Positions 3-34,306 of a stretch of DNA of 64,000 nucleotides are shown in pieces. The translations under genes were made by a program, and so were the position numbers. The DNA is from Ruegeria marina (GTDB lineage Bacteria > Pseudomonadota > Alphaproteobacteria > Rhodobacterales > Rhodobacteraceae), in NCBI RefSeq assembly GCF_900101475.1, contig NZ_FMZV01000001.1:62001-126000 (forward strand). The letters are read 5' to 3'. Under the pieces are notes generated by a model. It saw only the letters and a list, made by a program, of their open reading frames with translations, was not told the DNA's origin and did no database searches. Numbering within the stretch: position 1 is the first letter of the stretch; every line of letters begins with the position of its first letter.

Positions 3-1106
3 GCCGAACCGGCGGAGCGGCAGTCCGAAGTCGTGTCGCGGTTGCGGGAGATCTGGTCGGAGGTTCTGGCCTTGCCGGCCGAAAAGGTTACGGGCAACTT
101 CTTCGATCTCGGAGGGTATTCGGTTCTGGCGTTGCGGATGCTGTCAAAGGTCGGCGAATGCTTTGGGGTGCGCCCAAGCCTTAATGCCTTTCTGGCCGAG
201 CCGACAGTCGAGGGCCTTGCGGCTCTGCTGGAAAAAGCGCAGCCGCTGGCCGCTCCGCAAAAGGCCCTGGAGTCGCAACCGGGCGCGATCTGGGATCTGT
301 TCGAGTTGCGGAAGTCTTCGACCGGGGCGCCGGTGCTGATCACGGTGAATCAGCCGTTCATGTATCAGGCCCTGGCGCGTCAGATGACATCGGATTGCGC
401 GGTGGCAAGCCTGAACGTGCCGGGGATGGCCCAGTTGAACACGCTGGAACAGGCGGGCTTTGACAAGGCGGTCGACGAGGCGCTTTCGCCTGTTCTCGAA
501 CGCTATTCCGGGCGGCCCTTGATGCTGTGCGGGCTCTGCGTGGATGGTCGGGTGGCGCTTCGGCTTGCACAAAGGCTGAAGGACAAGGGGCAGACCGTTT
601 CATGCGTAGCGATGATCGATACCTGGGCGCCCGGCGCGATCAAGGCGTTTTCTGCCTTCGAGCGGGGGCTTGACCGGTGGCGGATCCGGCTGAGGCGGCT
701 GCGCTACTATCTGGGCCTGCGGCGGCAGGGCGAGATCGGCTGGGGCGATGTCCTGCGGCAGAATGATTTCGCGGCCAAGCTGCTTTCCATGTTCAGCCGG
801 TCGCCGGCAAAGGATGAAACCGCAATTCTGGTCGATGCGACGGTCGACCGCCTGGTTGAACAGACCAAGGCCTATACATTCGCGCACTATGACGGCGAGG
901 TCGCGCTTTTCGTGACCCGCTCGCAGGGGATGGTCCCGCGCGATGGGGTCCTCGGCTGGTCTGACCTGCTGTTGCCGGATGTGGCGGTCTTCCCCGTCAA
1001 CGGCTGGCACGGGGATGCCTTGATGCGGTCGGGTTTCGGGCGGATCATCGGGGTCCTTGATGTCAAGGCTGCAAGGTTGAACGCGGTCCGAACTTCGGAT
1101 GAGTGA
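3..1106 (+). CDS. NRPS C-terminal fragment: peptidyl carrier protein + thioesterase (5' truncated by window edge)
   Basis: The frame is open to the left edge, so the true start lies outside the window; a GTG at 33 is probably internal. Counted from that GTG, residues 1-70 form a carrier domain with the phosphopantetheine motif DLGGYS (Ser30). The rest resembles a type I thioesterase of alpha/beta-hydrolase fold. Its nucleophile elbow reads GLCVDG, placing Cys169 where most family members have Ser, and GWHGDAL near the end supplies the likely catalytic His. Such domains release or cyclise a thioester-bound peptide or polyketide. Its last 8 bases overlap the next gene, so it is translationally coupled to a glycan-related gene and a glycosidase. 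The convergent megasynthase at 4318-14265 has no thioesterase, so this protein could be its release partner, which is inference. It may be the tail of a larger NRPS or a stand-alone PCP-TE. Confidence 0.82.
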   Translation, partial: AEPAERQSEVVSRLREIWSEVLALPAEKVTGNFFDLGGYSVLALRMLSKVGECFGVRPSLNAFLAEPTVEGLAALLEKAQPLAAPQKALESQPGAIWDLFELRKSSTGAPVLITVNQPFMYQALARQMTSDCAVASLNVPGMAQLNTLEQAGFDKAVDEALSPVLERYSGRPLMLCGLCVDGRVALRLAQRLKDKGQTVSCVAMIDTWAPGAIKAFSAFERGLDRWRIRLRRLRYYLGLRRQGEIGWGDVLRQNDFAAKLLSMFSRSPAKDETAILVDATVDRLVEQTKAYTFAHYDGEVALFVTRSQGMVPRDGVLGWSDLLLPDVAVFPVNGWHGDALMRSGFGRIIGVLDVKAARLNAVRTSDE

Positions 1107-2658
1107 TCCCCTACATCCGCCCTTGCGGATTGTGCTGGTTGTCGATGCGCTGCACGATCTGACTGATGCCGAGGCGCTGTTGATCGACCGGTTGAGCGCG
1201 GACCCGAAGGTCGTGATTTGTGGGCGGATCGCCGGTACGGCTGGCCAGCGGGCTGACCCGCTGCCCATCAGTTTGCGTGGCTTTCTGGGTCTTGAACGGT
1301 TTGTCGTCGGCCGCCGGATTCTTCCCTATGACACCCGGAAGGCTGTGCGCTTGATGGCGGGCTTGCCCGAGGTCGCGCCAGATGCCGGGTCAGGGGCCTT
1401 CGACCTGGCGCTGGTGCTCGGTGCGAAGCGACTGGCGGCCGAGCAGCTTGCACTGGCCCGGTTCGGGGAATGGATGCTGTCCTATGGCGGGGCTGCTGAT
1501 CCAGGCTGGATCTGGACTGTGCCGGACTTGCGCGCGAAACCCCGCGTCGAGGTCGAAATCACGCAGCGGCACAGCGCGTCTCCCGCGCCGGTCACGATCC
1601 GGCGGACAAGCTACAACCCCAAGCCCGGTGCGGTTCTGACCGGAGCTTTCGTTGCGGAAAAATCGGTTCTGTTCCTGCATCATGCCTTGAGCGAACTTGC
1701 CGACAGGCGTGCCGTTCCGCAGGGTTCCGGGACACCCCTGATCGCGCCGGCGCCACCGGCTCTCGGGGATGTACTGTCTTATGCAGGCGCCTTTGCCCGC
1801 ACTTCTTTCCGCAAGTTTTCCGAACGGATACGTGAGCGCCAAAACCGGGCGCGCCAGTTCTGGCGCGTTGCCCATGGCACAGGGTCCGTGACCGCGATCA
1901 ACCCGATGGAGGCGGCGGATCTGCCGGACCGCAGGCAGATCATGGCGGATCCTTTCCTTTTCGAACATCAGGGAGAGCTGTGGGTCTTTTACGAGGCGAT
2001 GAGCGGCGGCGGGGGCAACGGTTGGATCGAGGCGGCCCGGCTTCTGCCAGGAGGCACCGGGCCTTCGGTTACGGCCTTGACGCGCCCCTATCACCTGTCT
2101 TTTCCTTTCGTGTTTTCCGAAGGTTCTGACATCTTCATGATCCCTGAAACGCAGCAGTCCCGCCGTCTCGAGGTTTGGAGGGCGACCGATTTCCCTACCG
2201 AATGGGTTTTGCATGCGACCGCTTTCGAGGGGCAGTACCTGGCTGAATCGAGCCTTTTTCGCGACGATCACGGGCAATGGTGGCTGTTGACGAACCTGTC
2301 CGATCATTACGCGTTCCAGGACCATTCCAGCGAACTCTACCTTTTTGCCGTCGATGGTCCTGATCTGAACTCGATCTCCCCACATCCTAAGAACCCGGTC
2401 GTTTTCGGGGCTGATCTGGCCCGCAACGCCGGGGCCATCATCCGGCACCGGGGGCGCTTGTACCGGCCCTCGCAGAACAACAGCTTTGGCGTCTATGGTT
2501 ATGGCCTGAACCTGATGGAAGTCCTTCGTCTCGATGGCGAGGGCTATGAGGAGCGTCTGGCATGGCAACTGACCCCCAAGGACAAACCGGGCAGTCTGGC
2601 GCTGCATCATCTGAGCGTGGTCGGAGACCAGTATGTTTTCGACTGGTGCGGCGAATGA
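1099..2658 (+). CDS. Polysaccharide-associated protein with C-terminal five-bladed-propeller-like (GINT1-N / formyltransferase-linked) domain
   Basis: This 519-residue protein has no signal peptide. Residues 1-215 begin with a Rossmann-like strand (LRIVLVVDALH) and look like the N-terminal region often fused to such proteins. Residues 285-515 contain repeated blades with motifs DPFLFEHQGELWVFYEA, IFMIPET and SSLFRDDHGQWWLLTN. These resemble the glycosidase-like propeller of the glucosamine inositolphosphorylceramide transferase N-terminal family, seen in bacterial glycan clusters beside formyl- or glycosyltransferases. The biochemical role of that family in bacteria is not settled, and this family call is from memory of the motifs. 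The gene overlaps the upstream PCP-TE gene by 8 bases and the downstream glycosidase by 4 (ATGA), so all three form one operon. A role in assembling or modifying the exopolysaccharide or a glycosylated NRPS product is inferred from this position. Confidence 0.6.
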   Translation: MSDPLHPPLRIVLVVDALHDLTDAEALLIDRLSADPKVVICGRIAGTAGQRADPLPISLRGFLGLERFVVGRRILPYDTRKAVRLMAGLPEVAPDAGSGAFDLALVLGAKRLAAEQLALARFGEWMLSYGGAADPGWIWTVPDLRAKPRVEVEITQRHSASPAPVTIRRTSYNPKPGAVLTGAFVAEKSVLFLHHALSELADRRAVPQGSGTPLIAPAPPALGDVLSYAGAFARTSFRKFSERIRERQNRARQFWRVAHGTGSVTAINPMEAADLPDRRQIMADPFLFEHQGELWVFYEAMSGGGGNGWIEAARLLPGGTGPSVTALTRPYHLSFPFVFSEGSDIFMIPETQQSRRLEVWRATDFPTEWVLHATAFEGQYLAESSLFRDDHGQWWLLTNLSDHYAFQDHSSELYLFAVDGPDLNSISPHPKNPVVFGADLARNAGAIIRHRGRLYRPSQNNSFGVYGYGLNLMEVLRLDGEGYEERLAWQLTPKDKPGSLALHHLSVVGDQYVFDWCGE

Positions 2659-4298
2659 AGGCCGCAAGCGCAATCCTTGCCGGTCTGGCGATGACGCTGG
2701 GGGGAGCGGCCCCGGCCGAAGAGCCAGCGCCAGGTTTCGTTCTTGGTGTGCAGACACATTTTCAGCAGGGCTGGCCGACGCGGCTGATCGGCGAGGCCAA
2801 GCGGCTGGGCGCTCCGGCGGTACGTGACGAACTGAGTTGGTCGCGGGTGGAGGAGGTGAAGGGTTTCTACGACTTTTCCGAGGCTGACCATTACATGAGG
2901 CCGCTGATCGAAATCGGTCTTACGCCCCTGATCGTCATGACCGATGATAACCGGCATTATGACTACGGCAAGACGCCGTATTCGGAGGATGGCATCGCCG
3001 GTCTGGCAGGCTACATCAGCGCCATTTTCGCACATTACGGAGTGGGCAACATCCAGATCGAGATCGGAAACGAGGTGAATTCCGATGATTTCGTCTCGGG
3101 CCCTTTCGTGCGCGACAAGCCAGGCAAACTTGCCGAAACGGTCCGGGCGGTGAGCGACAGGCTGGACCGGGACCATCCGGATGCGCAAATCATCTGCACC
3201 GGGCTGAACACCATCGCCATGGGCTTTCTTCGCGCGTTCTTTCAAAAGGGCGGGTTGCAGGCTTGTGACGGCATATCGGTGCATCCCTATCGTGACAATC
3301 CCGACACGGTCATGATGGAGTTGGACCGGTTGAAGGATCTGATGCGGGAATTCGGCGGTGAAAAGCCGATCCATGTGACCGAGTTTGGAAAATGGTTCGA
3401 CGATGCCGGGGAAGCGCCGGACTATATGGTCAAGATGGTCGCCCAGATGGCTGCGGTGGGTGTGCGCGAGGCCTACTGGTACGCGCTGATAGACGAACCA
3501 TGGTGGCCGAACATGGGGCTGCTGGAGAAGGATGGCGTAACTGCGAAACCCGCGGAGGATGCCTTTCTCCTGCTGCAATCGCGGCTCTTGCCGCTGGGGC
3601 CTGTGAGGTCACGCAGCGATGTGCCGACGGTGCGGCTGTTCGAGTTCGGTACAGGCGGGAGGGGCTTTGTTGCATGGGGCAGCGGCGCGCGGCTGCATGT
3701 CGAGGGGCAGGCAGACTATGTCGATACGCGGGGCAGGCCCATCGCGCCCGTGGCGCAGCTTTCGGACAGGCCGGTCATCCTGTTCGGAGAGGGGCTTCGG
3801 GTTTCGGTCGAGGATCCGCAAGTGGTCGCAGACACCAAGTATCAGTTCAGCCAACCGCCCTGGAGCTATCTTGCCCTGCTTCCGTGGGGCGAGTTGACGA
3901 CGCTCGAGATGATGGACTGGAACTGGACCAGTTATCGCGGTGCGCCTGATCTGAGGCCCCTGCAAATCGGCGACAAATGGATCACCACGGCCCGGTTTCA
4001 AGGCGAACCCTATCACGCCATTGAACGCTTCACCGCGCCCAGGGGAGGCGCCTATCGTGTCGAGGGGTGGTGGCAGGCTTCACCCAAGACCGAGCGTTCA
4101 CGGTTGATCATCCGCCACAATGGCGAGGTGGTGCTGGACGTACCCAAGATCACACCAGAGCGGTTTTCGCTGGGCGGCCTGTCGGTGATGCTCGATGCCG
4201 GGGACACTCTGGATTTCGAATTGGCGCCCACGGGTCCGGACGGGGACGGATCGGTACAGCGCCGCATTCGGGTGTTTGGCCCGCCCTCATCCGGTTGA
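2655..4298 (+). CDS. Secreted clan GH-A glycoside hydrolase (GH39-like)
   Basis: The start is placed at ATG 2655, in an ATGA overlap with the previous gene, because a clear signal peptide follows (MKAASAILAGLAMTLGGAAPAEE); 547 residues. The N-terminal ~340 residues form a TIM-barrel glycosidase: IEIGNEVN carries the acid/base Glu after Asn, and HVTEFGKWF carries the candidate nucleophile Glu, the two-glutamate pattern of clan GH-A. It resembles GH39-type enzymes and periplasmic glycosidases such as PslG that are encoded in exopolysaccharide operons. The C-terminal ~200 residues look beta-rich and could be an accessory or carbohydrate-binding domain. Periplasmic trimming or release of the locus polysaccharide is the likely role. 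The stop codon lies inside the hairpin shared with the convergent megasynthase. The exact GH family is uncertain. Confidence 0.82.
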   Translation: MKAASAILAGLAMTLGGAAPAEEPAPGFVLGVQTHFQQGWPTRLIGEAKRLGAPAVRDELSWSRVEEVKGFYDFSEADHYMRPLIEIGLTPLIVMTDDNRHYDYGKTPYSEDGIAGLAGYISAIFAHYGVGNIQIEIGNEVNSDDFVSGPFVRDKPGKLAETVRAVSDRLDRDHPDAQIICTGLNTIAMGFLRAFFQKGGLQACDGISVHPYRDNPDTVMMELDRLKDLMREFGGEKPIHVTEFGKWFDDAGEAPDYMVKMVAQMAAVGVREAYWYALIDEPWWPNMGLLEKDGVTAKPAEDAFLLLQSRLLPLGPVRSRSDVPTVRLFEFGTGGRGFVAWGSGARLHVEGQADYVDTRGRPIAPVAQLSDRPVILFGEGLRVSVEDPQVVADTKYQFSQPPWSYLALLPWGELTTLEMMDWNWTSYRGAPDLRPLQIGDKWITTARFQGEPYHAIERFTAPRGGAYRVEGWWQASPKTERSRLIIRHNGEVVLDVPKITPERFSLGGLSVMLDAGDTLDFELAPTGPDGDGSVQRRIRVFGPPSSG

Positions 4299-4306
4299 GG
4301 GCGGGC
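4279..4306. terminator. Bidirectional hairpin between convergent glycosidase and NRPS-PKS genes
   Basis: A perfect 11-bp inverted repeat (4279-4289 against 4296-4306, arm GCCCGCCCTCA) encloses a 6-base loop. It includes the stop codon of the plus-strand glycosidase and ends 11 bases before the stop of the minus-strand megasynthase. No T-tract follows on either side, so it may act as a stable barrier or 3'-end stabiliser rather than a classical intrinsic terminator. Confidence 0.65.
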
Positions 4307-4317
4307 ACGTAGCAGGT

Positions 4318-7300
4318 TCAGTTCGCCGCCGGCCGGGCCGTCCGGCGATAGGATTTCAGCGACGGCTTCTTCGGCCCGCCGGTTTCTCCTTCGTTGCTGT
4401 CCGCGAATGCCGCCAGCCGCGCAATCGACGGGTATTGCAGCAAGTGGCGAGCTTCGAGGTTCAGGCCAGCATCGATCAGCCGTGCCGCGATGCGGAACAC
4501 GGTGAGCGAGTCCGCTCCCAGCGAGAACAACGTCTGAGAGGTGCTGACCTTGTCGAGTCCAAGCACTTCTCTCCAGATCTCTGCCATCTTGGTTTCGGTC
4601 GGTGTTTTCGGGTCCGTATGGAGCGCCGTCACCGTCGCCGAGACCTCGGGGTCGGGCAGGGCCTTCCGGTCAAGTTTGCCATTTGCCGTTTGCGGCAAGG
4701 TGCTGAGAAACACCCAGGCCGAAGGTACCATATAGCCCGGAAGCCTTTCGGACAGGTATTGGGCAAGGGCATCTGGTCCGGGGTCGCGTCCGGCTTCGGC
4801 GACGACATAGCCGACCAGTTGTTGGTCGCCCCGTGGCGAGGGTTTCAGGGCGACAGCCGCCAGCTTGACATTGGCATGCGCGCGCAAGGCGGCTTCGACT
4901 TCGCCCAGTTCGATACGGAACCCTCTGAGCTTGATCTGGCCATCATTGCGGCCGAGCACCTGGATCGACCCATCTGGCAAGCGTCGGGCCAGGTCACCGG
5001 TCTTGTAGAGTGTTTCGGTCTTGCCGTTCACCGTCACCTGGCGGAAGGCCTCGGCTGTCAGGTCCGGGCGGCGGAAATAGCCCTTTGCAAGACCGGCCCC
5101 ACCAATGTTGAGTTCGCCAATGGCGCCAATGGGAAGCAGGCGGTTCTGCGGGTCGAGAACATGCAGCGAGGTATTTGCGATCGGATGTCCTATGGTGACA
5201 GGCGCTTCGGGTTCGATCCGCGCAATAGCCGACCAGATCGTGGTTTCGGTCGGGCCATAGACATTCCAGACTGCGCCGCCGCCAGCCGTCAGCTTGCCGG
5301 CAAGATCGGCGGGCAGGGGTTCCCCCCCGGCCAGCATGGTGAATCCCGGCGTGGGGGTGAAACCGGCCTCGAGCATCATCTGCCAGAGGGTCGGAGTGGC
5401 CTGCATATGGGTGATGTCGCCCATCTTCAGGCGATTGACCAGCCGGAAGCCATCCAGCACGTCCTCATGCGACGCAATTACAGTCCGGCCGCCCTGGATC
5501 AGTGGCAGGAATATCTCGAGCACCGAGATGTCGAACATCGTCGTCGTGACCGCCAGGAGAACATCGTTCTGGCCGAACCCGGGTTCTCGTGCCATCGAGG
5601 TCAGAAGGTTGACGACAGAGCGATGGCTGATCTCGACCCCTTTTGGTGTTCCGGTCGAGCCTGAGGTGAACATCACATAGGCCGTGGCATCGCCACCAAC
5701 CTTGACGGGCGCGGGCGCGCCGCCGGTATCGAGCGAGTGCAGCGGGATCGCGGGAAGATCGAGCCCTGCTGCGAATTCCGGCATGCCAGGCTGATCGTGG
5801 ACAATGCCTGACACGTCGGCATTTTCCAGGATCATGCGCAGCCTGGCCATGGGCTGGGACGGGTCTATCGGAACATAGGCGTTTCCGGATTTCATCACGC
5901 CCAGCAAAGCGGCCACGCAGTCTGTCGAACGCGGAAGGGCAACTGCGATACGTCCGCCCGGGGCAAGGTCCAGATCCTGGATGGCCTTCGCCATGGCGTC
6001 GCTTCGCTCCGCCAGCTGCCGATAGGTCATCTGCTGGACGCCGCATTCCAGCGCCACCTTGTCGGGTCGTTCGGCGGTGCGCTGGCCAATCAGCTGATGC
6101 ACGGTCTGGACGGTTGGCAGGTCCTGTGTGGTTCGGTTCGTTGCTTCGGCAATCCACGCGGCCTGATCGGCTGTTAGAACGGACAGATCCGCCAAGGGCC
6201 GGCCTGTATCGGCCGCGATTTCGGACAGGACGGTTTCCAGATGCCCGATCCAGCGCTGAACGGTTTCCGCATCGAAGACATCTGAGTTGTAGTCCACATC
6301 AACGCGCAGACCGTCGCGGCGCTCGACGATGTTGAAGAACAGGTCGAAATTCACCGCCGTCTTCGGGTTCGGCGCGACGGTCATCCGCACCGGGCCCATC
6401 TCGACACTTTCGCTCAGCCGTTCCAGGTTGAACTGGATCTCGGTCAGCGGAAGGCGGTTGAGCGACCGTTCGACATTCAGATCCCGGACCAGGGTGCCAT
6501 AGGTATAATCCTGATGATCGAAGGCGTTCATCACCTGATCGCTCACATGGCTGAGGTGATCCGCAATCGATCCGCCTTCAGTCTGTTTTGCCCGGATCGG
6601 AAGGAAGTTGACGCAATGCCCGACCATATCGCTGTTTTCAAGCAGGGCCTGGCCGCCCGTCGGAACGCCCAGCACGATATCGTCCGAGCCGCTGAGCCGG
6701 CTCATGACGATTTGCAGCCCGGCAAACAGCGTGGTGAACAGCGTGCAGCCCAGCGATGCGCCGGCCTTGCGGGCTGCGCGCATCACATCGCCCGGAATAT
6801 GCGCCGTGCATGTCGCGCCGTGATAGGTCTTCAGGGCTGGCCGGGGCCGATCGGTGGGAAGCTCGGGCAGGTCAGGGACATCCGCATATTGCGCGCGCCA
6901 GAAGTCGCGGGTTTCGACCGAGGGTTCGACGCCGGATTTGCGCTTGGCCAAGGCAGCGAAAGAAGGGGCCGGGGGCAGGTTGGCCGGGGTTCCGTCAACC
7001 TCCTGACGATAGAGGGCGGCAAGTTCCCTGGACAGCACGTTGTAAGACCAGCCGTCGCACACGATGTGATGTGCATTGATAACCAGAACATGGTCTTCGA
7101 CAGAACGTCGCACCAGGAAGGCGCGGAAAGGCGGGCCGGAAACGATGTCGATCTCGGTGGCCGAATCCTCCTCCAGAAGCTGCCGCAGCGCCGCTTCGGG
7201 ATCGTCCTCGCCGCTCAGGTCGTGTAGTGCGAGCGGTAGAGTAAAGGGTTCGAGGATATCGAAGGTTTCGCCATTTCGCGCAAAGACCTGCCGCAGCCCG

Positions 7301-16476: not shown

Positions 16477-16849
16477 ACCGGTCTTTGCATTTTCGCCGGC
16501 GGGAAAAACGAGGCGCGAAGGATGCCCGCAAGAACCCGCTCATTCAATCAAGGTGCCTGAAATTCGGATGAGGTGTCGATAACAGTTTGGCTCCGAGTAT
16601 GGTCGGTGCAATCCAGTATTCAAGCGAAACTTGGTGTGGCGCGATCCGGCAGGACGCCTGCCTTGTTGATTGCGGTGGCGGCCTGCAAAACGGATATTGG
16701 CAAGATCAAATTGACCGGCTGCGAAAACAATGGGCGGGCCAGGAAGGCACGCACCCGGGGAGCAATTTTCGCCTAGTTGTAGCGTAATGCCTTGGAGGTG
16801 CTATCCTTGAGACACTTGAAAGAAACCATGTGATTCGAAACGTATAGAT
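16477..16849. other. Divergent intergenic region between flippase and export genes
   Basis: This 373-bp region separates the divergent starts of the flippase (minus) and the ExoF/Wza-like gene (plus), so it should contain two promoters. Two short plus-strand frames of about 66 codons overlap here, but neither shows a domain, a signal sequence or a ribosome binding site. No clear operator palindrome was found. Confidence 0.4.
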
Positions 16850-20328: not shown

Positions 20329-20341
20329 AGGTAAAATCGGC

Positions 20342-21451: not shown

Positions 21452-23211
21452 AGCACCAGCGCCGATGGCGCGTCAGGGGACGAGTGCAGTGTGATCTCTG
21501 CGGTGCGCATCCGGGTTTCGGAATGGTTCGGGCCGCCCGTGTTGAGGTTGCGCTCGAGCCGGGGAAAGCTGGTGCCGGCAACATGCAGTCGGATACGGTG
21601 CCCTGCATCGAAGCGATAGGCGATGTCGCGCAGAGAGACGTCGATGTCGTAGATCTCGCCCGGTTGCAGCAGGCTGGGCTGAGCAAATCCGTTCCTGTAG
21701 CGAAGCCGGAGGGCCCCTTCCTGAACCAAGAGCGCATTCCCCGCGGGATCGACATCTATGAGGCGCAGGACCAGATCCGTGTCGGGCGTGCTTGCTGAAA
21801 CGCGCAGTTTTGCCCGCACAGCACCGGCGATGCGCAAGGGCGCGTCCAGAGGGGGCGAGGAATAGAGCAGCACGTCGGCCCGGTCTTCGATGGCGTTCTG
21901 ATGGACCGGGCCGCTACGTTCATCGGGATCGCCGGTACAGCAGATCGCCCCGCCGATCGAAGGGACAGGGTTCGACGGGTCCGACAGAAACCGGCGCGCG
22001 GCGGCATCTATCAATGCGCGGCCCTGTTCCAGACTGCCTGAACCGCTCAGGAAAAATCGTGTCTCGGCCGTGTCTGCGGGGGGCCAGGTTTCGGACCGGT
22101 GCCATTTGTCCTCGGCCAGGGAATAGAAACTGAGATACGGCAGGTCGGGAGCAGGGCCGTCCGCCAGGTGATGCCAAAGAAACCGGACGATGCTTTCGAC
22201 AAAGCCGAAGGTTTCTTGAGGTGAGACAGCGAGGTCGCCGACCATTGTGGCCTGATCGCTGCCCAGGTAGCCGCAATGGGTGCCCGCAGCGATAATCGTG
22301 CTGACTGGCGCCTCGGCGCGGCGCAGTGTATCGGCCAGCACCAGGGTGGAACTGACCCCGGGGTCGTGCCAAGTGTCGATGAAAAGGGCCGGCGTCTTGA
22401 AGGTTTCTTGCCCGGTCACATAGCCTAGGCTCTTCCAATAATCGGCGTCCTCGAAATTCTTCAGGAAATCCTCGAAATCCGTGGGGTCAGGGCGCATGTG
22501 GCGCACCACGTCGATGACCGGCAGGCTGGTGAGAGCTTCGGGAACAAGCGGCCGGTGTCCCGAGGTCGCGGGCGTCTTTCCGCCTTCGGTGCCGAACCAG
22601 CCGGCGGCAGTCGACAGATTGAGGATTCCGCCTTCGAAGACGCTGAAATAGGCATTGCGCCCGCCTGCGGTGCCGATCGCGCCTCCAGCGGCGATGGGCA
22701 CCATGGCGCGATGTGCCGGATGGGCCTGGGCCGCCAGCATCAACTGTGTCTCGCCCAGCGCGGAGCAGCCCAAGGTACCGACCTTGCCGTTTGACCAGGG
22801 TTGAGCGACGATCCAGTCGAGGGTTTCGACGCCGTCCGTTCCGGCGTTGGGGTAGGGCGTAAACACGCCATCGGACCCGTGACGGCCGCGCATGTCCTGG
22901 GCTACGACAGCAAAGCCGCGCGACACGAGCTCCTTGACCCAAAAGCGAACCTCTCCATAGCTGCGCTTGCCATATGGCAGGCGCATCAGCACCGTCGGAG
23001 CCGGGGCATTGCCCTTGGGAAGGTAGATATCGGTCGCTAGCTCAATGCCGTCCTGCATGGTAATCCTGACATCGGCGAGGTCGGGGGAGCCGGCCTGAAC
23101 CTGCCAGGCCAGCTTGTTGCGCATGGACCCGGCAAAATCGTCCAACGGCCATATCGGGGCAATAATGAGACCTGTCAGAACAATCCCGAGCATGATCGTT
23201 AACCGCTTCAT
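21433..23211 (-). CDS. CocE/NonD-family serine hydrolase (X-Pro dipeptidyl-peptidase-like), exported
   Basis: The start is placed at ATG 23211 (592 residues): GAGGA lies 10 bases upstream and a signal-anchor follows (MKRLTIMLGIVLTGLIIAPIW). The alpha/beta-hydrolase domain (residues ~55-350) contains VVAQDMRGRHGSDGVF, the nucleophile region GTLGCSALGET and the late motif IAAGTHCGY with the likely catalytic His. The last ~200 residues form the jelly-roll domain characteristic of CocE/XPP enzymes. Members hydrolyse esters or amides of acyl or aminoacyl substrates. Placed among glycan and NRPS genes, it could deacylate the product or cleave an aminoacyl decoration, which is inference. It is convergent with the GT4 gene and divergent from the PPTase gene, whose start is 62 bases away. 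Confidence 0.88.
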   Translation of the reverse strand: MKRLTIMLGIVLTGLIIAPIWPLDDFAGSMRNKLAWQVQAGSPDLADVRITMQDGIELATDIYLPKGNAPAPTVLMRLPYGKRSYGEVRFWVKELVSRGFAVVAQDMRGRHGSDGVFTPYPNAGTDGVETLDWIVAQPWSNGKVGTLGCSALGETQLMLAAQAHPAHRAMVPIAAGGAIGTAGGRNAYFSVFEGGILNLSTAAGWFGTEGGKTPATSGHRPLVPEALTSLPVIDVVRHMRPDPTDFEDFLKNFEDADYWKSLGYVTGQETFKTPALFIDTWHDPGVSSTLVLADTLRRAEAPVSTIIAAGTHCGYLGSDQATMVGDLAVSPQETFGFVESIVRFLWHHLADGPAPDLPYLSFYSLAEDKWHRSETWPPADTAETRFFLSGSGSLEQGRALIDAAARRFLSDPSNPVPSIGGAICCTGDPDERSGPVHQNAIEDRADVLLYSSPPLDAPLRIAGAVRAKLRVSASTPDTDLVLRLIDVDPAGNALLVQEGALRLRYRNGFAQPSLLQPGEIYDIDVSLRDIAYRFDAGHRIRLHVAGTSFPRLERNLNTGGPNHSETRMRTAEITLHSSPDAPSALVLHAFPD

Positions 23212-23273
23212 ATCTGTTGGGTCCTCGGTTGTTGTGGCAAAAATCACATTAACGATGGCGGGGGTGGTCGCAT

Positions 23274-23954
23274 TTGTATAGGGCGGATGTCTGGCTCTGG
23301 TCGCTTGATGCTCCGGCAGACCGTGTGATGGCGGCACGGGCGCTCTTGTCCGAGGACGAAATCGGGCGCGCCGCGCGATTTGTCCGGCAGGTCCACCGAG
23401 ACCGCTATATATTGGGACGGGCGCGGCTGCGTCGGCTTCTCGGCGCGGAAACGGGCCGGGATCCGCGCGACATCTCGTTTACCTATGGCGAAAATGGCAA
23501 GCCCCTTCTTCGCGATGGCCCCCATTTCAATCTCAGCCATTCCGAGGACACCGCGGCTCTCGCCATAAGCCGCGATCTTGCTCTGGGCATCGACATCGAG
23601 AAGCACAGGCCAATCGAAGACAGCGTCGCGCGTTACCATTTTTCTCCTGACGAATACGCTGAACTTGGCTGTTTGGACGGGGGGCGCTGGCTTGAAGGGT
23701 TCTATCGCTGCTGGACGCGGAAAGAGGCCATCATCAAGACGGACGGCCAAGGATTGTCGAGGCCGCTGGACAGTTTCGACGTATCCCTGACCCCGGGCAC
23801 GCCCGCGCGGCTGATCCGGATTGAAGGAGATGAGCCCGAGCAATGGCGTCTGCTGCATTTCGATCCTGGTCCGGGCTGGTCGGGTGCAGTTGCCGCGCGG
23901 ACGGGCGGCGAAGAAATCCGGCTGAACTGGCGTACCGCACATTCCTTCGAGTAA
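23274..23954 (+). CDS. Sfp-type 4'-phosphopantetheinyl transferase
   Basis: The enzyme transfers phosphopantetheine from CoA to the conserved Ser of carrier domains. At 226 residues the length is usual for the Sfp class. Signature motifs are GENGKPLL, FNLSHSEDTAALAI (CoA binding), LGIDIEKHRP (Mg-binding Asp/Glu) and FYRCWTRKEAIIKTDGQG (the W-x-x-KEA motif). The start is a TTG at 23274, supported by the Shine-Dalgarno-like GGGGGTGG 7-14 bases upstream; the first residues then read YRADVWLWSLD, the normal beginning for the family. Three carrier domains in the megasynthase and one in the PCP-TE protein are the obvious targets, so this gene ties the two synthase parts into one functional cluster. 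Confidence 0.93.
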   Translation: MYRADVWLWSLDAPADRVMAARALLSEDEIGRAARFVRQVHRDRYILGRARLRRLLGAETGRDPRDISFTYGENGKPLLRDGPHFNLSHSEDTAALAISRDLALGIDIEKHRPIEDSVARYHFSPDEYAELGCLDGGRWLEGFYRCWTRKEAIIKTDGQGLSRPLDSFDVSLTPGTPARLIRIEGDEPEQWRLLHFDPGPGWSGAVAARTGGEEIRLNWRTAHSFE

Positions 23955-23961
23955 GCAGCGT

Positions 23962-24768
23962 TCATTCCGCACGTTCGAGGACATAACCCCGGCTGGTGCT
24001 CGCTCCCAGCGATGGATGCGTGGCGATAGTTCTGGCCAGGCTTGGAATGTGCCAGCTGTCGCGGATCCGATAGCCCATTGCGGCAATACCGTGTTCGAAC
24101 TCCGCCCGGTTTCTGATCTGATAGGGAATCCGGCCCGAGCCGATCTTTTCCAGGGTCACAACGGTGGGGCCATTGGTTGTTGCCACCTTGTTGAGCAGAA
24201 TATGCTTCGGTGGACTGGGCAGGCTATCCACCAGTTCGTGAAACCCGATATCCAGATATTGCAGCAGCCCCGAAGCCAGAAGGACATCGGGGGCTTGTGC
24301 TTTCGAAAGGTCATCGAAGAACTTGATCTGATCCGGAACCTTGCCGGATTGCTGCAATCTGAGCGCGGCGCGGATCGTCGCCGGAACATCGTAGACGTTC
24401 CAGTCAACCTGACCGAGGTCGATACGGTCGCGGAAGGCGATGAACTTGGTGCCGAAATGCCCGCCGGCATCCAGCACGTTCAGCCCGGGCTGCATAAGGC
24501 GTTCCAGCCAGAACATGATCGGATAGTCCCAGATGTGGGTTTCGCTCATCAGTTCGAAGTTGAGCGGCGCGATCTTATCATTATCGTAGCTGCTTGGCGT
24601 GCCCTTGCTGACCTGGGCAACCGCCGTATTCCGGTCGGGATAGGCGCCGATGAAGGCCGGCGGGCGAATCCCGAGCGCCATAATCCTTGCCCAGAGCGCA
24701 GAAACCGGCCAACCGATGCGGCGTTTGAGTGTTCCGAGCAGGGCCTTTGCGATTGATCGAATGGACAT
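23962..24768 (-). CDS. Putative methyltransferase, TIGR04325 (LIC12133) family
   Basis: The start is set at ATG 24768 (268 residues), with GGAG 5 bases upstream; the longer open frame upstream looks non-coding. The protein opens with a basic helix (KALLGTLKRRIGWPVSALW). The class I SAM-binding loop is NVLDAGGHFGTKFIAF (~107-122), followed by DWNVYDVPATI and DVLLASGLLQYLD, a layout typical of TIGR04325 proteins found in O-antigen and exopolysaccharide clusters. It would methylate a sugar or lipid-linked intermediate; no target has been defined that I can use here. It is convergent with the PPTase gene (7-base gap) and divergent from the Wzy-like gene. Confidence 0.8.
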   Translation of the reverse strand: MSIRSIAKALLGTLKRRIGWPVSALWARIMALGIRPPAFIGAYPDRNTAVAQVSKGTPSSYDNDKIAPLNFELMSETHIWDYPIMFWLERLMQPGLNVLDAGGHFGTKFIAFRDRIDLGQVDWNVYDVPATIRAALRLQQSGKVPDQIKFFDDLSKAQAPDVLLASGLLQYLDIGFHELVDSLPSPPKHILLNKVATTNGPTVVTLEKIGSGRIPYQIRNRAEFEHGIAAMGYRIRDSWHIPSLARTIATHPSLGASTSRGYVLERAE

Positions 24769-24914
24769 GGCTTCTCCGGTGCATCTTGCTTGCGTCTGGA
24801 TGATTGACGGTCGGTTGGCGCCAGACGGACGAGACAATTCTCTGTGCCGGTCGAAGCAACTTGGAACCAGCAACGCATGATGTAGACTGCGATCAAACAC
24901 GGGCGGACGCAAGA

Positions 24915-26330
24915 ATGGCTTTATACCCCGCGGCCGGAGTCTTTTTGTTGTTATGGCTTTGGTCGGTTATCCGGAATGCAGATAACGGCGTGCCCTTGGT
25001 CATGGCCATGTTGCCGTTCGGCATGTTTGCAGCTCTGGCCCTTGGCGGGCTGTCTCTGCTGTTGGCAAATCTGTTGGCCATGATGACCATCGGAATCTTG
25101 TTGGTGCGCCGCTTGAGTTGGCGGGGCAGGCGGGAGCCGTTCCATATTCCACCGGCTGGACTCTATCTGCTGGCTTTTGCGCTCTATTCCCTGTTCGCGG
25201 GCTTTGTCATGGTTCGGATCTTTCAGGGGCAGTTCCTGGTCTTCCCCATGAATGTTACCTACAAGTCCACTCAGGTCAGCGTGTTCTTCCCGTCCACAAT
25301 GTGGCCTCTGCATCCGACCAAGTCGAATATTTCCCAGTCTTTCTATATTCTGCTTTCATGTGGGTTCTTCCTGGCTGCGGTTCTCGTCCTGCGCAGGCGA
25401 GGCCCCCGGTTTGCCGAGACCGGGCTGGTCTGGGCTGGCGGTCTAAATATCCTGCTGGGGCTGCTTGACTTGCTGGGGCTCGACAGCCTGCTCGGCGTGA
25501 TCCGGACCGCCGACTATTCGCTGGCCAACGAGCACACGGTCGCAGGCATGGCCCGCGTGATCGGAGGGTTTTCCGAAGCATCGGTCTTCGGCGCGGCCTC
25601 GGCGGCGTTTGCCGGGTATTTCCTTATGTCATTTCTGATCGGCCGCCGCGGCCGCGACGGGTTCCTGGCACTTGGCAACATGGCTTTTGCGGCTCTGGCG
25701 CTGTCCAGCACGGCCTTTCTGGCGCTTGCGGTGGCGGTGGTGCTGGTCGTGTTGCACGCCCGCACGTACCTTCACGGCGCCATTTCGCGCACCGCCGGGC
25801 ATGTCTTTGTCATCGGACTGGCCGTATTGGTGTCATTGCTTTGTGTCGCGGTCATGCTCACACCCGTGCTCGACCTGGCCGCAGACCTTCTCGACCGCTT
25901 GTTCTTGTCCAAACGCGGAACATTGTCCGGCATGGAGCGCTCGGCTTGGGCCGGGGCCGGCTTCAACGCCTTCTTTCAGACCTGGGGTTTCGGGGCCGGT
26001 CCCGGGTCATTGCGGGGCAGCGGGTTGGCCTCGGTCATGCTGGGCAGTGTCGGCCTTCCGGGGACGATATGCTTCCTGGGATTCCTGTATTACGCTGTTG
26101 GAAAACCGATCGGTGAGGCCGGTCTCGAGATGCGCCGCATCTATTATGCAAGCCGTGTGAGCGCGCTGACCTTGCTGACTTCGATGATGGTGTCGGCTAC
26201 CGTGCCCGATCCCACCTTGTTGCTGATGTCGGTCACAGCGCTTGCTGTTTCGGCGCGTGACGCGTCGTGGATAAGTCACCAGGTCAATCCGAGACGCGCA
26301 GTCCGCGAAATGGCAGTGGAACAGACGTAG
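24915..26330 (+). CDS. Wzy/O-antigen-ligase-like polysaccharide polymerase candidate
   Basis: The start is placed at ATG 24915 (471 residues) because it begins directly with a membrane helix; the in-frame TTG at 24804 adds non-hydrophobic sequence and lies close to the divergent gene. About ten hydrophobic helices surround a periplasmic loop at residues ~340-400, containing FLSKRGTLSGMERSAW and the glycine-rich FGAGPGSLRGSG. That layout (helices, one large loop late in the protein) is usual for Wzy polymerases and O-antigen ligases, whose sequence conservation is poor. As the only such protein in a locus that has flippase, co-polymerase and exporter, it is the best candidate for the polymerase. 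The assignment rests on topology and context rather than a diagnostic motif. Confidence 0.72.
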   Translation: MALYPAAGVFLLLWLWSVIRNADNGVPLVMAMLPFGMFAALALGGLSLLLANLLAMMTIGILLVRRLSWRGRREPFHIPPAGLYLLAFALYSLFAGFVMVRIFQGQFLVFPMNVTYKSTQVSVFFPSTMWPLHPTKSNISQSFYILLSCGFFLAAVLVLRRRGPRFAETGLVWAGGLNILLGLLDLLGLDSLLGVIRTADYSLANEHTVAGMARVIGGFSEASVFGAASAAFAGYFLMSFLIGRRGRDGFLALGNMAFAALALSSTAFLALAVAVVLVVLHARTYLHGAISRTAGHVFVIGLAVLVSLLCVAVMLTPVLDLAADLLDRLFLSKRGTLSGMERSAWAGAGFNAFFQTWGFGAGPGSLRGSGLASVMLGSVGLPGTICFLGFLYYAVGKPIGEAGLEMRRIYYASRVSALTLLTSMMVSATVPDPTLLLMSVTALAVSARDASWISHQVNPRRAVREMAVEQT

Positions 26331-26670
26331 AATTGCAGCGCCCCGGCTATCCGTGGACTGAGTAATGTCCGGAGCATTTTCGCTTGGGTCGCGTCGTTTG
26401 ATTGAGTGGGATTAAGGCAATAGGTGCATGGGTTGTGTCATAATTTTGTCAATTTCATATAGACGAAAATTTTTTGAGTTATCCACAAGCTATCCCCCTT
26501 ATTTTCTGCGGGTTTGGGGCGGAATGCCTAAATAACTGAAGAATTACAAAGATTTTCCCTGTCGTCGTCGATTTTCACCTATAATCGGAATGCTGCATAT
26601 GATTCGCCTTCGCCCAATATTTGGGGCGAAATTTTCGTTTTGTAACAACCTATGTTTGTTCGGTGGGGTT
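26331..26670. promoter_or_regulatory. AT-rich 340-bp promoter region of the ExoY-like gene, with a DnaA-box-like sequence
   Basis: No gene is seen. The stretch 26430-26620 is far richer in A and T than the surroundings, as expected for a strong or regulated promoter ahead of the priming sugar transferase. It includes TTATCCACA at 26479-26487, a match to the nine-base DnaA box consensus. A single box does not make an origin; DnaA- or DnaA-like regulation, or coincidence, are both possible. No reliable -35/-10 pair was assigned. Confidence 0.45.
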
Positions 26671-27378
26671 ATGACTATAAATACGAAGGTTCATCCCGGA
26701 TCAGAATCCGGATTTGCAGTGGTGCACAAAGCCGTATCTGACACGGTGATCAGATATGAGATGCAAGTCGATAGTCTGGCACGTTCGATTTTCGAGAAGG
26801 GCTTCGCCATGGTTGCGCTTCTTTTCTTTGCGCCATTCTTCTTGAGCATCGCAATGCTGATCTGGCTTACCGAGGGCGGGCCGGTTTTCTTCGGGCACAA
26901 GAGGGTTGGCCGGAATGGCAAGACCTTCAATTGCCTCAAGTTCCGGACCATGGCTCTGGACGCTGAAGAACAGCTTCAGAAACTGCTCGATCGGGACCCG
27001 GAAGCTCGGGCGCAGTGGGAAGCCAACCAGAAGCTGGATGACGACCCCCGTATTACCTGCATCGGCGAGTTCTTCCGCAAGACCAGCCTGGATGAGCTGC
27101 CGCAGTTCTGGAATGTCTTGAAGGGTGAAATGGCCATCGTGGGGCCTCGGCCGATTGTGGCGTCAGAAATGCATCACTATGGCGACCACATTGCCGAATA
27201 CCTGTCGGTGAAGCCTGGGATTACCGGTGCTTGGCAGGTCAACGGACGCAGCAAGACCACTTACGATGAACGTGTTCAAATGGATGTGGAATACGTCCAC
27301 ACGCGGACCTTCAAGAAGGATCTGGCAATCATCGCAAAGACGGTGAAGGTCATGCTTCTTGGGGATGGGGCGAAGTGA
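26671..27378 (+). CDS. Undecaprenyl-phosphate sugar phosphotransferase (priming glycosyltransferase, ExoY/WcaJ C-terminal type)
   Basis: The 235-residue form from ATG 26671 is chosen because GGTGGGG lies just upstream; an in-frame start at 26590 would add unlike sequence. One re-entrant or TM helix at ~48-68 (GFAMVALLFFAPFFLSIAML) is followed by the catalytic bacterial sugar-transferase domain. Motifs are VFFGHKRVGRNGKTFNCLKFRTM, FFRKTSLDELPQFWNVLKGEM, IVGPRP and GITGAWQVNGRS. It moves a hexose-1-phosphate to undecaprenyl phosphate, the first step of repeat-unit assembly. It is the short ExoY form without the four-helix N-terminal part of WcaJ. It stands behind its own AT-rich promoter region and is followed by two glycosyltransferase genes on the same strand. 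Confidence 0.94.
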   Translation: MTINTKVHPGSESGFAVVHKAVSDTVIRYEMQVDSLARSIFEKGFAMVALLFFAPFFLSIAMLIWLTEGGPVFFGHKRVGRNGKTFNCLKFRTMALDAEEQLQKLLDRDPEARAQWEANQKLDDDPRITCIGEFFRKTSLDELPQFWNVLKGEMAIVGPRPIVASEMHHYGDHIAEYLSVKPGITGAWQVNGRSKTTYDERVQMDVEYVHTRTFKKDLAIIAKTVKVMLLGDGAK

Positions 27379-27398
27379 GCCTGAGGCGCTGAACCGGC

Positions 27399-27506
27399 TT
27401 ATTCGGCGATGATGCTGACCGCCGCAATCCAAGTGAAACAGCATCCGAGCACCACAGCGACCCTGAGGGCACTTGGCGAAAGGCGGCTTAAAACGCGTTC
27501 GCACAT
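27399..27506 (-). CDS. Candidate 35-residue single-TM peptide antisense in the polysaccharide locus
   Basis: An ATG-TGC start at 27506 opens a 35-residue frame: a basic/polar head (MCERVLSRLSPSALR), one hydrophobic helix with two Cys and a Trp, and the end SIIAE. It lies in the 285-bp gap between the sugar transferase and the GT2 gene, on the opposite strand to both. Its pattern ALR-x-x-V-[IV]-x-x-C-x-x-x-W-x-A matches, ungapped, the small frame at 14663-14758. No Shine-Dalgarno sequence is visible. The remaining gap (27507-27663) is AT-rich and probably holds the promoter for the downstream genes. Confidence 0.3.
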   Translation of the reverse strand: MCERVLSRLSPSALRVAVVLGCCFTWIAAVSIIAE

Positions 27507-27663
27507 CAAGCGAGAAGTAGTGTTTTGAAAATTCATTGGAATCTGCTCGGCATCTTATTTTTACTGGTTTATTATCGCCCTGATCCGTTAATTTGTCAAT
27601 ATCTAGCGCGCGGGGCATGGCAAGTGCCAACAACTTGTGTGCAAATGGGAAGTGATAAGCGTG

Positions 27664-28548
27664 ATGCGCTTGATAGTCTCAATTCCGACAACCAATCGCG
27701 CAGCAGTTGTCGCGCTGACGATTCAGGATATTGCGCGACAATCGCGGTTGCCTGATCTGGTTCTGGTCGTGGTCGCCGACGAGTCGGATATCGATCCGGC
27801 TGCAATCGAGGGTCTGCCATTTCCTGTTGCGGTCCAGAAAAGCGAGCGCGGGTTGACCTGTCAGCGTAATGTCGCGCTGGGTATGCTCGAAGCCGACGAT
27901 TTGGCGCTGTTCCTGGACGATGATTTCGTGATGGCGCCCGACTATCTGGCCAATTTGGAACGCCTGTTCAGGGAGTACCCGGATGTGGTCATGGCCACCG
28001 GCACCGTCCTTGCAGATGGCATTCACGGGCCGGGTTTGAGCTATGAATACGGACGGAATCTGACCATGAACGTGGCCTTGCCTGGCGCGACTGCCCTGAG
28101 CCCGAAGGACATCTATAACTGTTATGGCTGCAACATGGCGCTCAGGGCGTCGTATGTGGTGGCCCACGGGGTGAGGTTCGACCAGAGATTGAAGCTGTAT
28201 GGCTGGCTGGAAGACGTTGATTTTTCGCGCCAGATGGCGGCATACGGGCGGATCGTCAAATCGGCGGCATTGCGGGGGGTGCATCTGGGAACCAAGACGG
28301 GGCGCAGCAGCGGCTTGAGATTGGGCTATTCACAGGTTGCAAATCCGCTCTACCTGAACCGAAAGGGCACGATGGCGCCGATACGAGTGTTGAACATTGT
28401 CGGGCGCAATCTGATCAGCAACCTGGTCAAGTCCGTAAGGCCCGAGCCGGAAGTCGACCGGTTGGGACGATTGAAGGGAAATCTGCAGGCATTCGGCGAT
28501 CTGATGCGCGGCCGGTTGCAGCCTGAGCGGATTCTGACGTTTGAATGA
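27664..28548 (+). CDS. Glycosyltransferase family 2 (GT-A)
   Basis: The start is ATG 27664 (294 residues), with GGAAGTGA a short distance upstream; in-frame starts at 27637 and 27652 add a few residues only. The GT-A fold shows MRLIVSIPTTNR at the N-terminus, the metal-binding motif LFLDDDFVMAPDYL (D-x-D) near residue 90, and a C-terminal YGWLEDVDFSRQM with the ED acceptor-site pair. It would add a sugar to the lipid-linked intermediate in the cytosol. It overlaps the following GT4 gene by 4 bases (ATGA), so both are expressed together. Confidence 0.9.
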   Translation: MRLIVSIPTTNRAAVVALTIQDIARQSRLPDLVLVVVADESDIDPAAIEGLPFPVAVQKSERGLTCQRNVALGMLEADDLALFLDDDFVMAPDYLANLERLFREYPDVVMATGTVLADGIHGPGLSYEYGRNLTMNVALPGATALSPKDIYNCYGCNMALRASYVVAHGVRFDQRLKLYGWLEDVDFSRQMAAYGRIVKSAALRGVHLGTKTGRSSGLRLGYSQVANPLYLNRKGTMAPIRVLNIVGRNLISNLVKSVRPEPEVDRLGRLKGNLQAFGDLMRGRLQPERILTFE

Positions 28549-29786
28549 CAGGCGCAGGTCCGGGCCGGGTGGTCATACTGAGTGATTTCGCAACCGTCCG
28601 GGGCGGTGCGTCCAAGCTGGCGGTTATGCAGGCCGGGCAACTGACGCGCCAAGGGGTGCCGGTCACCTTCTTTACCGGCGATAGCGAGGCCGATCTGCCG
28701 GCCGGTGTCGATCTGGTCAGCCTCGGCGGGCGCAGATTGCTGGATCAGGGCAAGCTGGAGGCGGCGATCGCCGGCTTGTGGAACCGAAAGGCCGAAGTCC
28801 TGCTACGCGACTGGATTGCGTCAAATGACACGCCGGCCACGATCTATCATGTCCACGGCTATCATCAGACGCTGTCACCATCTGTCCTGGCCCCTCTTAA
28901 GCGCGTCAGGAATAGAACCGTCATGCATGCGCACGACTATTTTCTTGCATGTCCCAATGGCGCCTTCTTCGACTTCCGGGCTGCAAGGACCTGCAATCGC
29001 CAGGCGCTGTCATGGCCGTGCATCGCGCGCAATTGCGACAAGCGGAACTATGGTCACAAGCTCTGGCGCGTGGCGCGGCAGACACTCCAGAACCGGGCAA
29101 GATCCCGTCTGCTGCCGGAGGTGGGTACGATCCTGCTGCACGACGGGATGCAAAGGCGCCTGTTTCCGCAGGGTGGCGGCGGGCAGGTGTTTTCGATTGC
29201 AAACCCTGCCGATCCGATGCTGGCAAACCCCGTCGCGGCCGAGCGCAACCGCGCGCTGGTTTTCGTTGGTGACATCCACGAATACAAGGGTGTGTTCGTG
29301 TTGGCCGAGGCGGGCCGGCGCGCCGGGCTGTCCGTTGTGTTCGCAGGAGCCGGTCAGGATCTTTCGCGCCTTCGGGAGGAGTATCCCGAGCATCACTATG
29401 CAGGGTGGCAGGACCGGGAGGGCCTGTGCCGGATATTGGCCGAGGCGCGGCTGCTGGTGGCGCCGACTCTTGGACCCGAACCCTTCGGCCTGGCGCCTGT
29501 CGAAGCTTTGTTGTCCGGCGTGCCGGTTATCATTTCGGATGAAATGCTTCTGGGTCGGGAAATCGAAACGAGGGACATGGGGCGGGTATTCAGGGCGGGC
29601 GATAGTGAGGCTTTGGCAAAGCTGCTTGCCGAACTTGCCGGGGACGATGCGCGCGTTGCCCTGATGTCGCGGAATGCTGTGGCCAGGGGGCGGGAACTGT
29701 CGCTGAGTTCCGAAGCCTGGTGTGCTGCATTGACGGAGATCTACGAAAGACTTCTTGAAGACGCGGGCAGAGATGCAAGGGCCTGA
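28545..29786 (+). CDS. Glycosyltransferase family 4 (GT-B)
   Basis: This 413-residue enzyme has a Rossmann start (VVILSDFATVRGGASKLAVMQAGQL), a mid-protein HAHDYFLACPNGAFFDF segment as found in many wall and exopolysaccharide GT4 proteins, and the donor-binding region PEPFGLAPVEALLSGVPVI with the conserved Glu pair. A short insert (residues ~145-180) is rich in Cys and basic residues. It is translationally coupled to the GT2 gene. Together with the GT4 at 20342-21451 and the priming enzyme, it implies a repeat unit of at least four sugars if each acts once. It is convergent with the acyltransferase across a 60-bp gap that shows no terminator. Confidence 0.9.
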   Translation: MTGAGPGRVVILSDFATVRGGASKLAVMQAGQLTRQGVPVTFFTGDSEADLPAGVDLVSLGGRRLLDQGKLEAAIAGLWNRKAEVLLRDWIASNDTPATIYHVHGYHQTLSPSVLAPLKRVRNRTVMHAHDYFLACPNGAFFDFRAARTCNRQALSWPCIARNCDKRNYGHKLWRVARQTLQNRARSRLLPEVGTILLHDGMQRRLFPQGGGGQVFSIANPADPMLANPVAAERNRALVFVGDIHEYKGVFVLAEAGRRAGLSVVFAGAGQDLSRLREEYPEHHYAGWQDREGLCRILAEARLLVAPTLGPEPFGLAPVEALLSGVPVIISDEMLLGREIETRDMGRVFRAGDSEALAKLLAELAGDDARVALMSRNAVARGRELSLSSEAWCAALTEIYERLLEDAGRDARA

Positions 29787-34302: not shown

Positions 34303-34306
34303 CCCC

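Follow-up and report, generated by a model that had tools for sequence, protein, structure and literature searches.

Known assembly systems and the Ruegeria marina locus

Loci for Wzx/Wzy-dependent exopolysaccharides (EPS) bring together a priming transferase, glycosyltransferases, a flippase, a polymerase, Wzc-type and Wza-type proteins, and a glycosidase, and the decoration of polysaccharides with amino acids is known. The 64,000-nucleotide stretch of Ruegeria marina analyzed here (the window; bases 62001 to 126000 of contig C17 in a genome, G000, of 4.99 Mb) holds a complete-looking Wzx/Wzy-type EPS locus with the same kinds of genes, its polymerase being a candidate, but it differs from described loci in carrying, as a unit, a hybrid nonribosomal peptide synthetase–polyketide synthase (NRPS-PKS), a release protein, a phosphopantetheinyl transferase (PPTase), an S15 hydrolase, and a TIGR04325 methyltransferase. 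Judged by comparison of genomes, the association between this synthase and the polymer locus is not due to chance, and a partnership of the two is well supported and, in our view, very probable. The best single explanation, and the one toward which we lean, is that the assembly line makes a peptidyl substituent that would be put on the repeat unit before flipping, with the attachment predicted from the genes. Because amino-acid decoration is already known, we see the locus as kin to known Wzx/Wzy loci, with only the means being unusual.

Other described systems resemble parts of this unit. In the D-alanylation of teichoic acids (Dlt), an adenylation (A) domain and a carrier protein aminoacylate a surface polymer; the unit shares the A domain and the carrier protein, but its predicted product is a multi-step peptide-polyketide, and no DltB-like partner appears among the family matches of its genes. 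MycA of the mycosubtilin/iturin-type assembly lines starts with a fatty acyl ligase, whereas the synthase in the window starts with an A domain and a peptidyl carrier protein (PCP) with an amino-acid-type code, uses glycine next, and stands in an EPS locus. Common to both is a ketosynthase–acyltransferase–acyl carrier protein (KS-AT-ACP) segment followed by an in-line aminotransferase (AmT), here a class III domain (7807–8742, minus strand) whose best solved relative is mycosubtilin synthase subunit A (E = 1.6e-118). SulM (sulfazecin) and ObiF (obafluorin) share with the release protein a cysteine as thioesterase (TE) nucleophile, as described in an excerpt of PMC11298585, but in the present proteins this residue lies in Leu-Cys-Val or similar rather than Gln-Cys-Asn, and an A domain is missing from the terminal module. 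ATP-grasp ligase genes of polysaccharide loci, which stand among the EPS genes of the synthase-free G193 and G350, encode small ligases instead of a carrier-protein assembly line. Among the matches listed from the open-licence PMC literature (titles and abstract openings), there is no description of an NRPS-PKS that decorates a Wzx/Wzy polysaccharide.

Genes were called from open reading frames and from Pfam/NCBIfam family scans. The elements named by the initial annotation (NRPS-PKS, Wzx, exporter, co-polymerase, glycosyltransferases, and PPTase) are all present, the polymerase as a candidate only, and the S15/CocE-type hydrolase and the TIGR04325 methyltransferase are members of the unit beyond those it named. 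The synthase (4318–14265, minus strand) is arranged A-PCP-KS-AT-PCP-AmT-C-A-PCP (C, condensation) by its Pfam domains and active-site motifs, and has, as first reported, 3315 residues from its first ATG (14265) with no internal stop. The gene at 3–1106 (plus strand), originally called a PCP-TE, actually encodes only the last 367 residues of a C-PCP-TE protein of 838 residues (Pfam Condensation, PP-binding, and Thioesterase), the whole gene of which (G000:C17:60590-63106) starts 1410 bases upstream of the window. A search of the whole genome finds two condensation domains, both in the synthase and release unit, and three PPTase-family matches, one of them at the EPS locus: an Sfp/HetI-type enzyme lies at 23274–23954 on the plus strand (PF01648 over its cut-off; HetI-like, below that model's cut-off).

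Co-occurrence of the synthase and the exopolysaccharide genes

In a sample of 394 genomes of the family, 31 match the C-PCP-TE protein at a cut-off of 1e-20, and 14 of these were taken as orthologues: 13 with E ≤1e-118, plus G301 (2.4e-66), which is cut by a contig end; G253 was counted from its C-PCP-TE alone. As an EPS marker we used the GT4 glycosyltransferase GT4a that adjoins Wzc (20321–21451, plus strand, start tentative; Glycos_transf_1) at a cut-off of 1e-80. The marker occurs in 36 of the 394 genomes and has Wzc nearby in 31 of the 36, among them all 14 orthologue genomes. The marker is thus carried by 14 of the 14 genomes with an orthologous release module, with a hypergeometric probability of 1.9e-16 (1.3e-17 for the 31 genomes with marker and Wzc), relatedness being ignored in both tests. 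Release module and EPS genes are co-located in 12 of the 14, 10 beside the synthase and 2 beside the release gene alone (G139 and G301), versus 0 of 10 control NRPS loci (p = 6.7e-5). In G346 and G253, the EPS genes lie on another contig than the synthase or release gene. Contigs of G091, G139, and G301 end within the locus, and in the latter two the synthase is not on the EPS contig.

The ten control loci, read over stretches of 15 to 40 kb that are shorter than most test stretches, contain no EPS genes. They were drawn from 17 genomes with non-orthologous NRPS (unused: G015, G017, G120, G126, G196, G200, and G295), 2 of which carry the marker, on contigs other than their NRPS. G017 (6e-93) was read as a test locus instead of a control and was excluded as an orthologue on account of a second A domain that does not read as glycine and the absence of the EPS marker, a choice made after seeing the data; with G017 counted in, the marker is found in 14 of 15 genomes (P = 2.7e-15) and co-location in 12 of 15 (p = 1.1e-4 versus the controls).

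The extra genomes G394 to G397 lie outside the sample. Synthase and EPS genes are co-located in G394 (Ruegeria sp. R14_0), G395 (Rhizobiales bacterium; Wzc and Wzy matches below the bit thresholds used), and G397 (Solirhodobacter olei); the metagenome-assembled genome G396 has no EPS genes in the 22 kb around its synthase and has them on another contig. Gene orders differ widely among the 15 co-located loci. When 385 genomes from the class were searched, only G671 and the window's own genome matched at better than 1e-90; the unit is therefore centered on this family.

The synthase-linked loci also share a set of smaller genes. A PPTase, S15 hydrolase, or methyltransferase gene stands beside the marker in 11 of 12 synthase-linked loci versus 0 of 24 synthase-free loci (p = 2e-8), and the lone exception is G301, with its contig end. 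Five of the 24 (G276, G318, G123, G345, and G018) have no Wzc match and for that reason may represent EPS loci of a different kind; limiting the test to synthase-free loci with Wzc leaves 0 of 19 (p = 1.4e-7). Across the 15 co-located loci, the PPTase is found in 12, the methyltransferase (23962–24771, minus strand, start tentative; 172.7 bits against a cut-off of 80) in 8, and the S15/CocE-NonD hydrolase (21433–23211, minus strand, start tentative; TIGR00976, 315 bits, over its cut-off) in 7.

Co-conservation of this kind bears out the earlier proposal that the synthase and the polymer locus work together. Independent occurrence of the two in relatives, which that proposal had named as the finding that would speak against it, is seen in part: the marker occurs without the synthase in 22 of the 36 family genomes, and where the synthase is away from the EPS genes (G346, G396, and probably G253), all three genomes keep EPS elsewhere. 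The two might still be ordinary neighbors, a secondary-metabolite cluster brought into a variable region beside the EPS genes by chance or by joint transfer. EPS loci are variable, and only 14 of 394 genomes have the orthologous release module, so joint transfer could inflate the association; however, the company is kept despite reshuffled gene order, the control NRPS loci are without any EPS genes, and the EPS type is still present where synthase and EPS are apart. We consider this explanation improbable, and plain hitchhiking was dropped as a leading idea, given the control loci and the reshuffled orders.

The polysaccharide genes do not all follow the synthase alike. In the tree of Wzx (15007–16476, minus strand, in the window; PF13440/PF01943 over cut-off), 10 of 12 synthase-linked rows form one group (support, 98/99), to which the window's copy belongs, together with a single synthase-free row, G350; outside it are the Wzx of G142 and the one beside G253's C-PCP-TE, which was labeled as linked. 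The latter touches a separate observation: the lone C-PCP-TE gene of G253 (L077; G253:C106) adjoins this Wzx-like gene away from both the EPS contig and the other NRPS contig, amid apparent ubiE, ubiB, dnaA, and dnaN genes (by eye). Label-shuffle tests used nearly the same rows for each gene, 19 to 24 (15 for the glycosidase, GHA), small sets for which the shuffles ignore relatedness; the same-row trees leave out G123 and G263, and G350, which has two EPS loci, may contribute from either. Out of 500 shuffles, those as low as observed numbered 1 to 2 for Wzx, 8 to 9 for the polymerase candidate Wzy (24915–26330, plus strand, start tentative; no Pfam/NCBIfam match, relatives in other EPS loci), 20 to 28 for the glycosyltransferase GT4b, 50 to 53 for GT2, 61 to 76 for Wzc, 176 to 197 for GT4a (on whose tree the synthase label needs 9 changes), 215 to 227 for the priming phospho-glycosyltransferase (PGT), and 282 to 290 for GHA. 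Clustering by synthase presence is thus a property of Wzx and, more weakly, of Wzy and GT4b, and not of Wzc, GT4a, PGT, or GHA. Since Wzx and Wzy handle the finished repeat unit, their tracking of the synthase is the trace expected of a changed repeat unit.

Synthase-free loci show what may take its place. In G193, the GT4a, Wzc, Wza, GT2, PGT, and Wzy proteins are 53 to 78% identical to those of the window, the Wzx is about 23% identical, and GT4b, GHA, and GINT1_N are also distant (35 to 44%); its EPS genes include an ATP-grasp protein, a CheR-type methyltransferase, an amine oxidase, and, below the Pfam cut-off, a possible radical SAM protein. Those of G350 include two ATP-grasp proteins (one of them below cut-off), an RraA-like protein, and an Ldh2 dehydrogenase. 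We read the ATP-grasp gene sets of G193 and G350, the two synthase-free loci that this survey covered, as alternative decoration cassettes. In G350, two EPS loci with different Wzc types adjoin each other (L188-L189), and one of them has a synthase-type Wzx but ATP-grasp genes instead of a synthase.

The same Wzx result could mean that the flippase exports a glycosylated peptide and that the EPS is a separate product. In the window, Wzx adjoins the 5′ end of the synthase gene, and its tree follows the presence of the synthase, as such a glycoconjugate would lead one to expect. No locus yielded more than one Wzx homologue, however, so the flippase would have to serve the EPS too unless another is encoded elsewhere, and the polymerase candidate tracks the synthase as well; we think that an exported glycoconjugate is quite unlikely.

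Predicted chemistry and release of the product

Active-site motifs of the KS, AT, AmT, and C domains are intact in the window's synthase. The AT motif reads HAFH, which we take to indicate malonyl specificity, and the second A domain has the code DILQ-G--W, presumably that of glycine, in 15 of 15 synthases compared (the diverged G017 departs from this reading). The first A domain (A1) shows 12 different specificity codes among 13 loci, a count made up of 12 rows plus L037, whose code equals that of G182, and without G397, G346, G091, and G276, for which the search picked another adenylation domain. All 13 have an Asp at the amine-binding position; under the rule, which we assume, that Asp at the first code position marks an amino-acid-type A domain, this argues for an amino acid as the predicted class of starter. 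As the glycine code is constant and the A1 codes vary, a constant beta-amino/glycine core with a variable first residue is suggested. The loading A-PCP is encoded in an open frame separate from KS onward in G006 (L094-L096), G310 (L082-L084), and G395 (L035, L152-L154); a starter unit with its own gene would make the variable first residue easier to swap.

The predicted chemistry consists of a variable first amino acid, malonyl extension, beta-transamination, and glycine. The PPTase would activate the carrier domains; the loading A domain would then pick an amino acid that differs between strains, KS/AT would add malonyl, the MycA-type aminotransferase would convert the beta-keto group to a beta-amine, and the second module would add glycine. 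The resulting chain, an aminoacyl-derived beta,gamma-diamino-acyl-glycine, would be handed to the separate C-PCP-TE protein. A predicted product with two amines and a carboxyl end might in principle serve as a cross-linker between polymer chains rather than as a side-group, but no second ligation enzyme was identified and the S15 hydrolase occurs in only 7 of the 15 co-located loci, and we give this possibility very little credence.

The TE nucleophile is a cysteine in 18 of 18 orthologues read, in motifs such as GLCVDG, GICVHG, GVCVHG, GHCVDG, and GQCADG; in the window it is Cys650 of the 838-residue protein (GLCVDG; codon at 537–539, plus strand). An Asp follows 27 residues later, and both residues are invariant in six aligned sequences. 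The second His of the condensation motif is lost in 10 of 17 sequences (Asn in 5, Gln in 4, Arg in 1) and kept in 7. The addition of a third amino acid by C-PCP-TE was set aside, as the terminal module has no A domain. According to an excerpt of PMC11298585, SulM and ObiF form beta-lactams and beta-lactones with their cysteine TEs, and a Cys-to-Ser change in the SulM TE leads to rapid hydrolysis of the product. A beta-lactam TE of the SulM type was set aside because the Gln-Cys-Asn signature is absent, and another cyclization is possible. These features lead us to infer that, in the EPS-linked module, amino-acid addition has ceased and the cysteine TE acts by transfer instead of hydrolysis. 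G671, from another family (L207-L209), has a terminal C-A-PCP-TE with an intact condensation His and a cysteine TE, and the 46 kb read there contains no EPS gene match except a weak one to a priming transferase. With such a relative, it becomes likely that the EPS-linked group lost its A domain, and the G671 module is a likely picture of the release module before that loss.

The proposed product can then be followed to the polymer, the whole being a Wzx/Wzy-dependent EPS locus that would carry an exchangeable decoration cassette. The TE cysteine would hold the acyl group and pass it to an amine or hydroxyl acceptor; we propose that this acceptor is a repeat-unit sugar or the corresponding nucleotide sugar. 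A matching Wzx would flip the modified repeat unit and a matching Wzy polymerize it, with export via the common Wzc (and, where found, Wza). The S15 hydrolase carries the motif GCSALG in 7 of 7 sequences and an N-terminal hydrophobic stretch in 6 of 7 (by eye), and its relatives include cocaine esterase and alpha-amino acid ester hydrolases; the enzyme is probably periplasmic, anchored outside the inner membrane, and may trim or edit the substituent.

The synthase could instead make a separate small molecule (a signal, metal binder, antibiotic, or strained lactam) that acts with the EPS, for example by being held in or released into the matrix, without being covalently bound. The products of the SulM and ObiF cysteine TEs, as excerpted from PMC11298585, are of this sort; G346 and G396 have the synthase away from the EPS locus, and the methyltransferase and hydrolase could be tailoring enzymes. 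It is the repeat-unit enzymes, though, that track the synthase (Wzx, more weakly Wzy, and not Wzc), and no more than one Wzx homologue was found in any locus. We therefore prefer decoration to a separate metabolite, which we regard as unlikely; between the two products that the initial annotation had offered, a decoration of the polymer fits better and an exported metabolite less well.

Several observations weigh against a peptidyl substituent on the repeat unit. No dedicated transferase was identified, the attachment to the polymer being predicted from genes, and a cyclic small product is possible by analogy with the other cysteine TEs that, in the excerpt of PMC11298585, make beta-lactams or beta-lactones. 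Synthase and EPS genes are apart in G346, G396, and probably G253, so proximity is not required, and in G017 a diverged relative stands without the EPS. With PPTase genes also present in 5 of 10 control NRPS loci, this gene is a mark of the synthase and not of the polymer. On the trees, the Wzx of G350 is of the synthase type although no synthase is present, the opposite holds for G142, GT2 is intermediate, and the tests cover 15 to 24 rows with relatedness ignored.

A broader and more tentative proposal is that the assembly line works as a glycan-modifying enzyme. In place of a free metabolite it would make a peptidyl side-group with a hypervariable first residue for the EPS repeat unit, its cysteine TE would have exchanged the amino-acid acceptor of its module for a sugar, and it would be exchangeable with ATP-grasp cassettes, so that related bacteria could set varied surface chemistries on a common polymer backbone.

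Remaining genes of the locus and implications

The coupling of the release gene to sugar enzymes, initially held to be the strongest clue, is real but less telling than supposed. The GINT1_N gene (1099–2658, plus strand) starts 8 bases within the C-PCP-TE gene, and the likely ATG of the GH-A gene (2655–4298, plus strand) overlaps its stop. GINT1_N and GH-A, however, each occur in 8 of 24 marker loci without the synthase, and GINT1_N directly follows C-PCP-TE in only 6 of 15 co-located loci; we accordingly rejected the two as dedicated partners of the synthase.

The first of these genes, previously described only as belonging to a glycan family, encodes a GINT1_N protein (PF24793, 102 bits), for which predicted models and fold searches indicate an N-terminal formyltransferase-like fold and a GH43/GH130-like propeller. 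A plain sequence search yielded no relative of solved structure, and a sequence profile search gave one marginal match only. The N-terminal model matches ArnA, Fmt, and WbkC (best Foldseek E, 7.4e-7), but the overlay is loose, with TM-scores by query length of 0.36 to 0.55 and root mean square deviations of 5.8 to 12.2 Å among the 50 matches listed. The full HxSLLP-type motif, presumably the active site of sugar formyltransferases, is absent in 10 of 10 GINT1_N rows (two rows have HPS or HGS only), and an active formyltransferase was therefore rejected. The second encodes a clan GH-A-like glycosidase with a signal-like N-terminus (judged by eye), with Glyco_hydro_cc below cut-off, a weak beta-galactosidase match, and relatives in EPS loci.

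From left to right, C-PCP-TE, GINT1_N, and GH-A are followed by the minus-strand NRPS-PKS, which is convergent with them, as first described, its end (4318) lying 19 bases from that of the GH-A gene, and by Wzx. Then come a Wza/OPX-type exporter (16850–18115, plus strand; Poly_export and SLBB over cut-off), the Wzc-type co-polymerase/tyrosine autokinase (18112–20328, plus strand; Wzz, GNVR, and AAA_31 over cut-off, TIGR01005 below its cut-off), GT4a, the S15 hydrolase, the PPTase, and the methyltransferase. An open reading frame opposite the methyltransferase gene (24016–24756, plus strand) has no family match. Beyond the Wzy candidate lie the PGT (26590–27378, plus strand; Bac_transf, 1e-63; WbaP/EPS_sugtrans-like, below those models' cut-offs) and, from the family scan, a GT2 glycosyltransferase (27637–28548, plus strand), GT4b (28545–29786, plus strand), and a membrane acyltransferase (Acyl_transf_3; 29847–30977, minus strand) that has no relative in the compared loci at 1e-10.

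The flanks are of other kinds, with DUF892, SDR, PhaC, Pta, and acetate kinase genes 5′ of C-PCP-TE and a TRAP transporter operon 3′ of the EPS genes. The operon adjoining the EPS locus (31425–37269, plus strand) encodes DctP/Q/M, followed by a PEP-mutase-like protein, a BadF-type ATPase-family protein, and a NagA-like amidohydrolase, and looks like one for amino-sugar uptake. A scan with Rfam returned three tRNAs and no other match.

If the repeat unit is indeed decorated in this way, NRPS/PKS machinery does more than produce secreted small molecules: it also customizes a surface polysaccharide. Cluster mining would change, as the product would be missed in small-molecule extracts, and so would the prediction of exopolysaccharide chemistry; a testable route to peptide-bearing polymers would also open. 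The variable first residue suggests that the unit may serve to diversify the cell surface, for example against phages or grazers.

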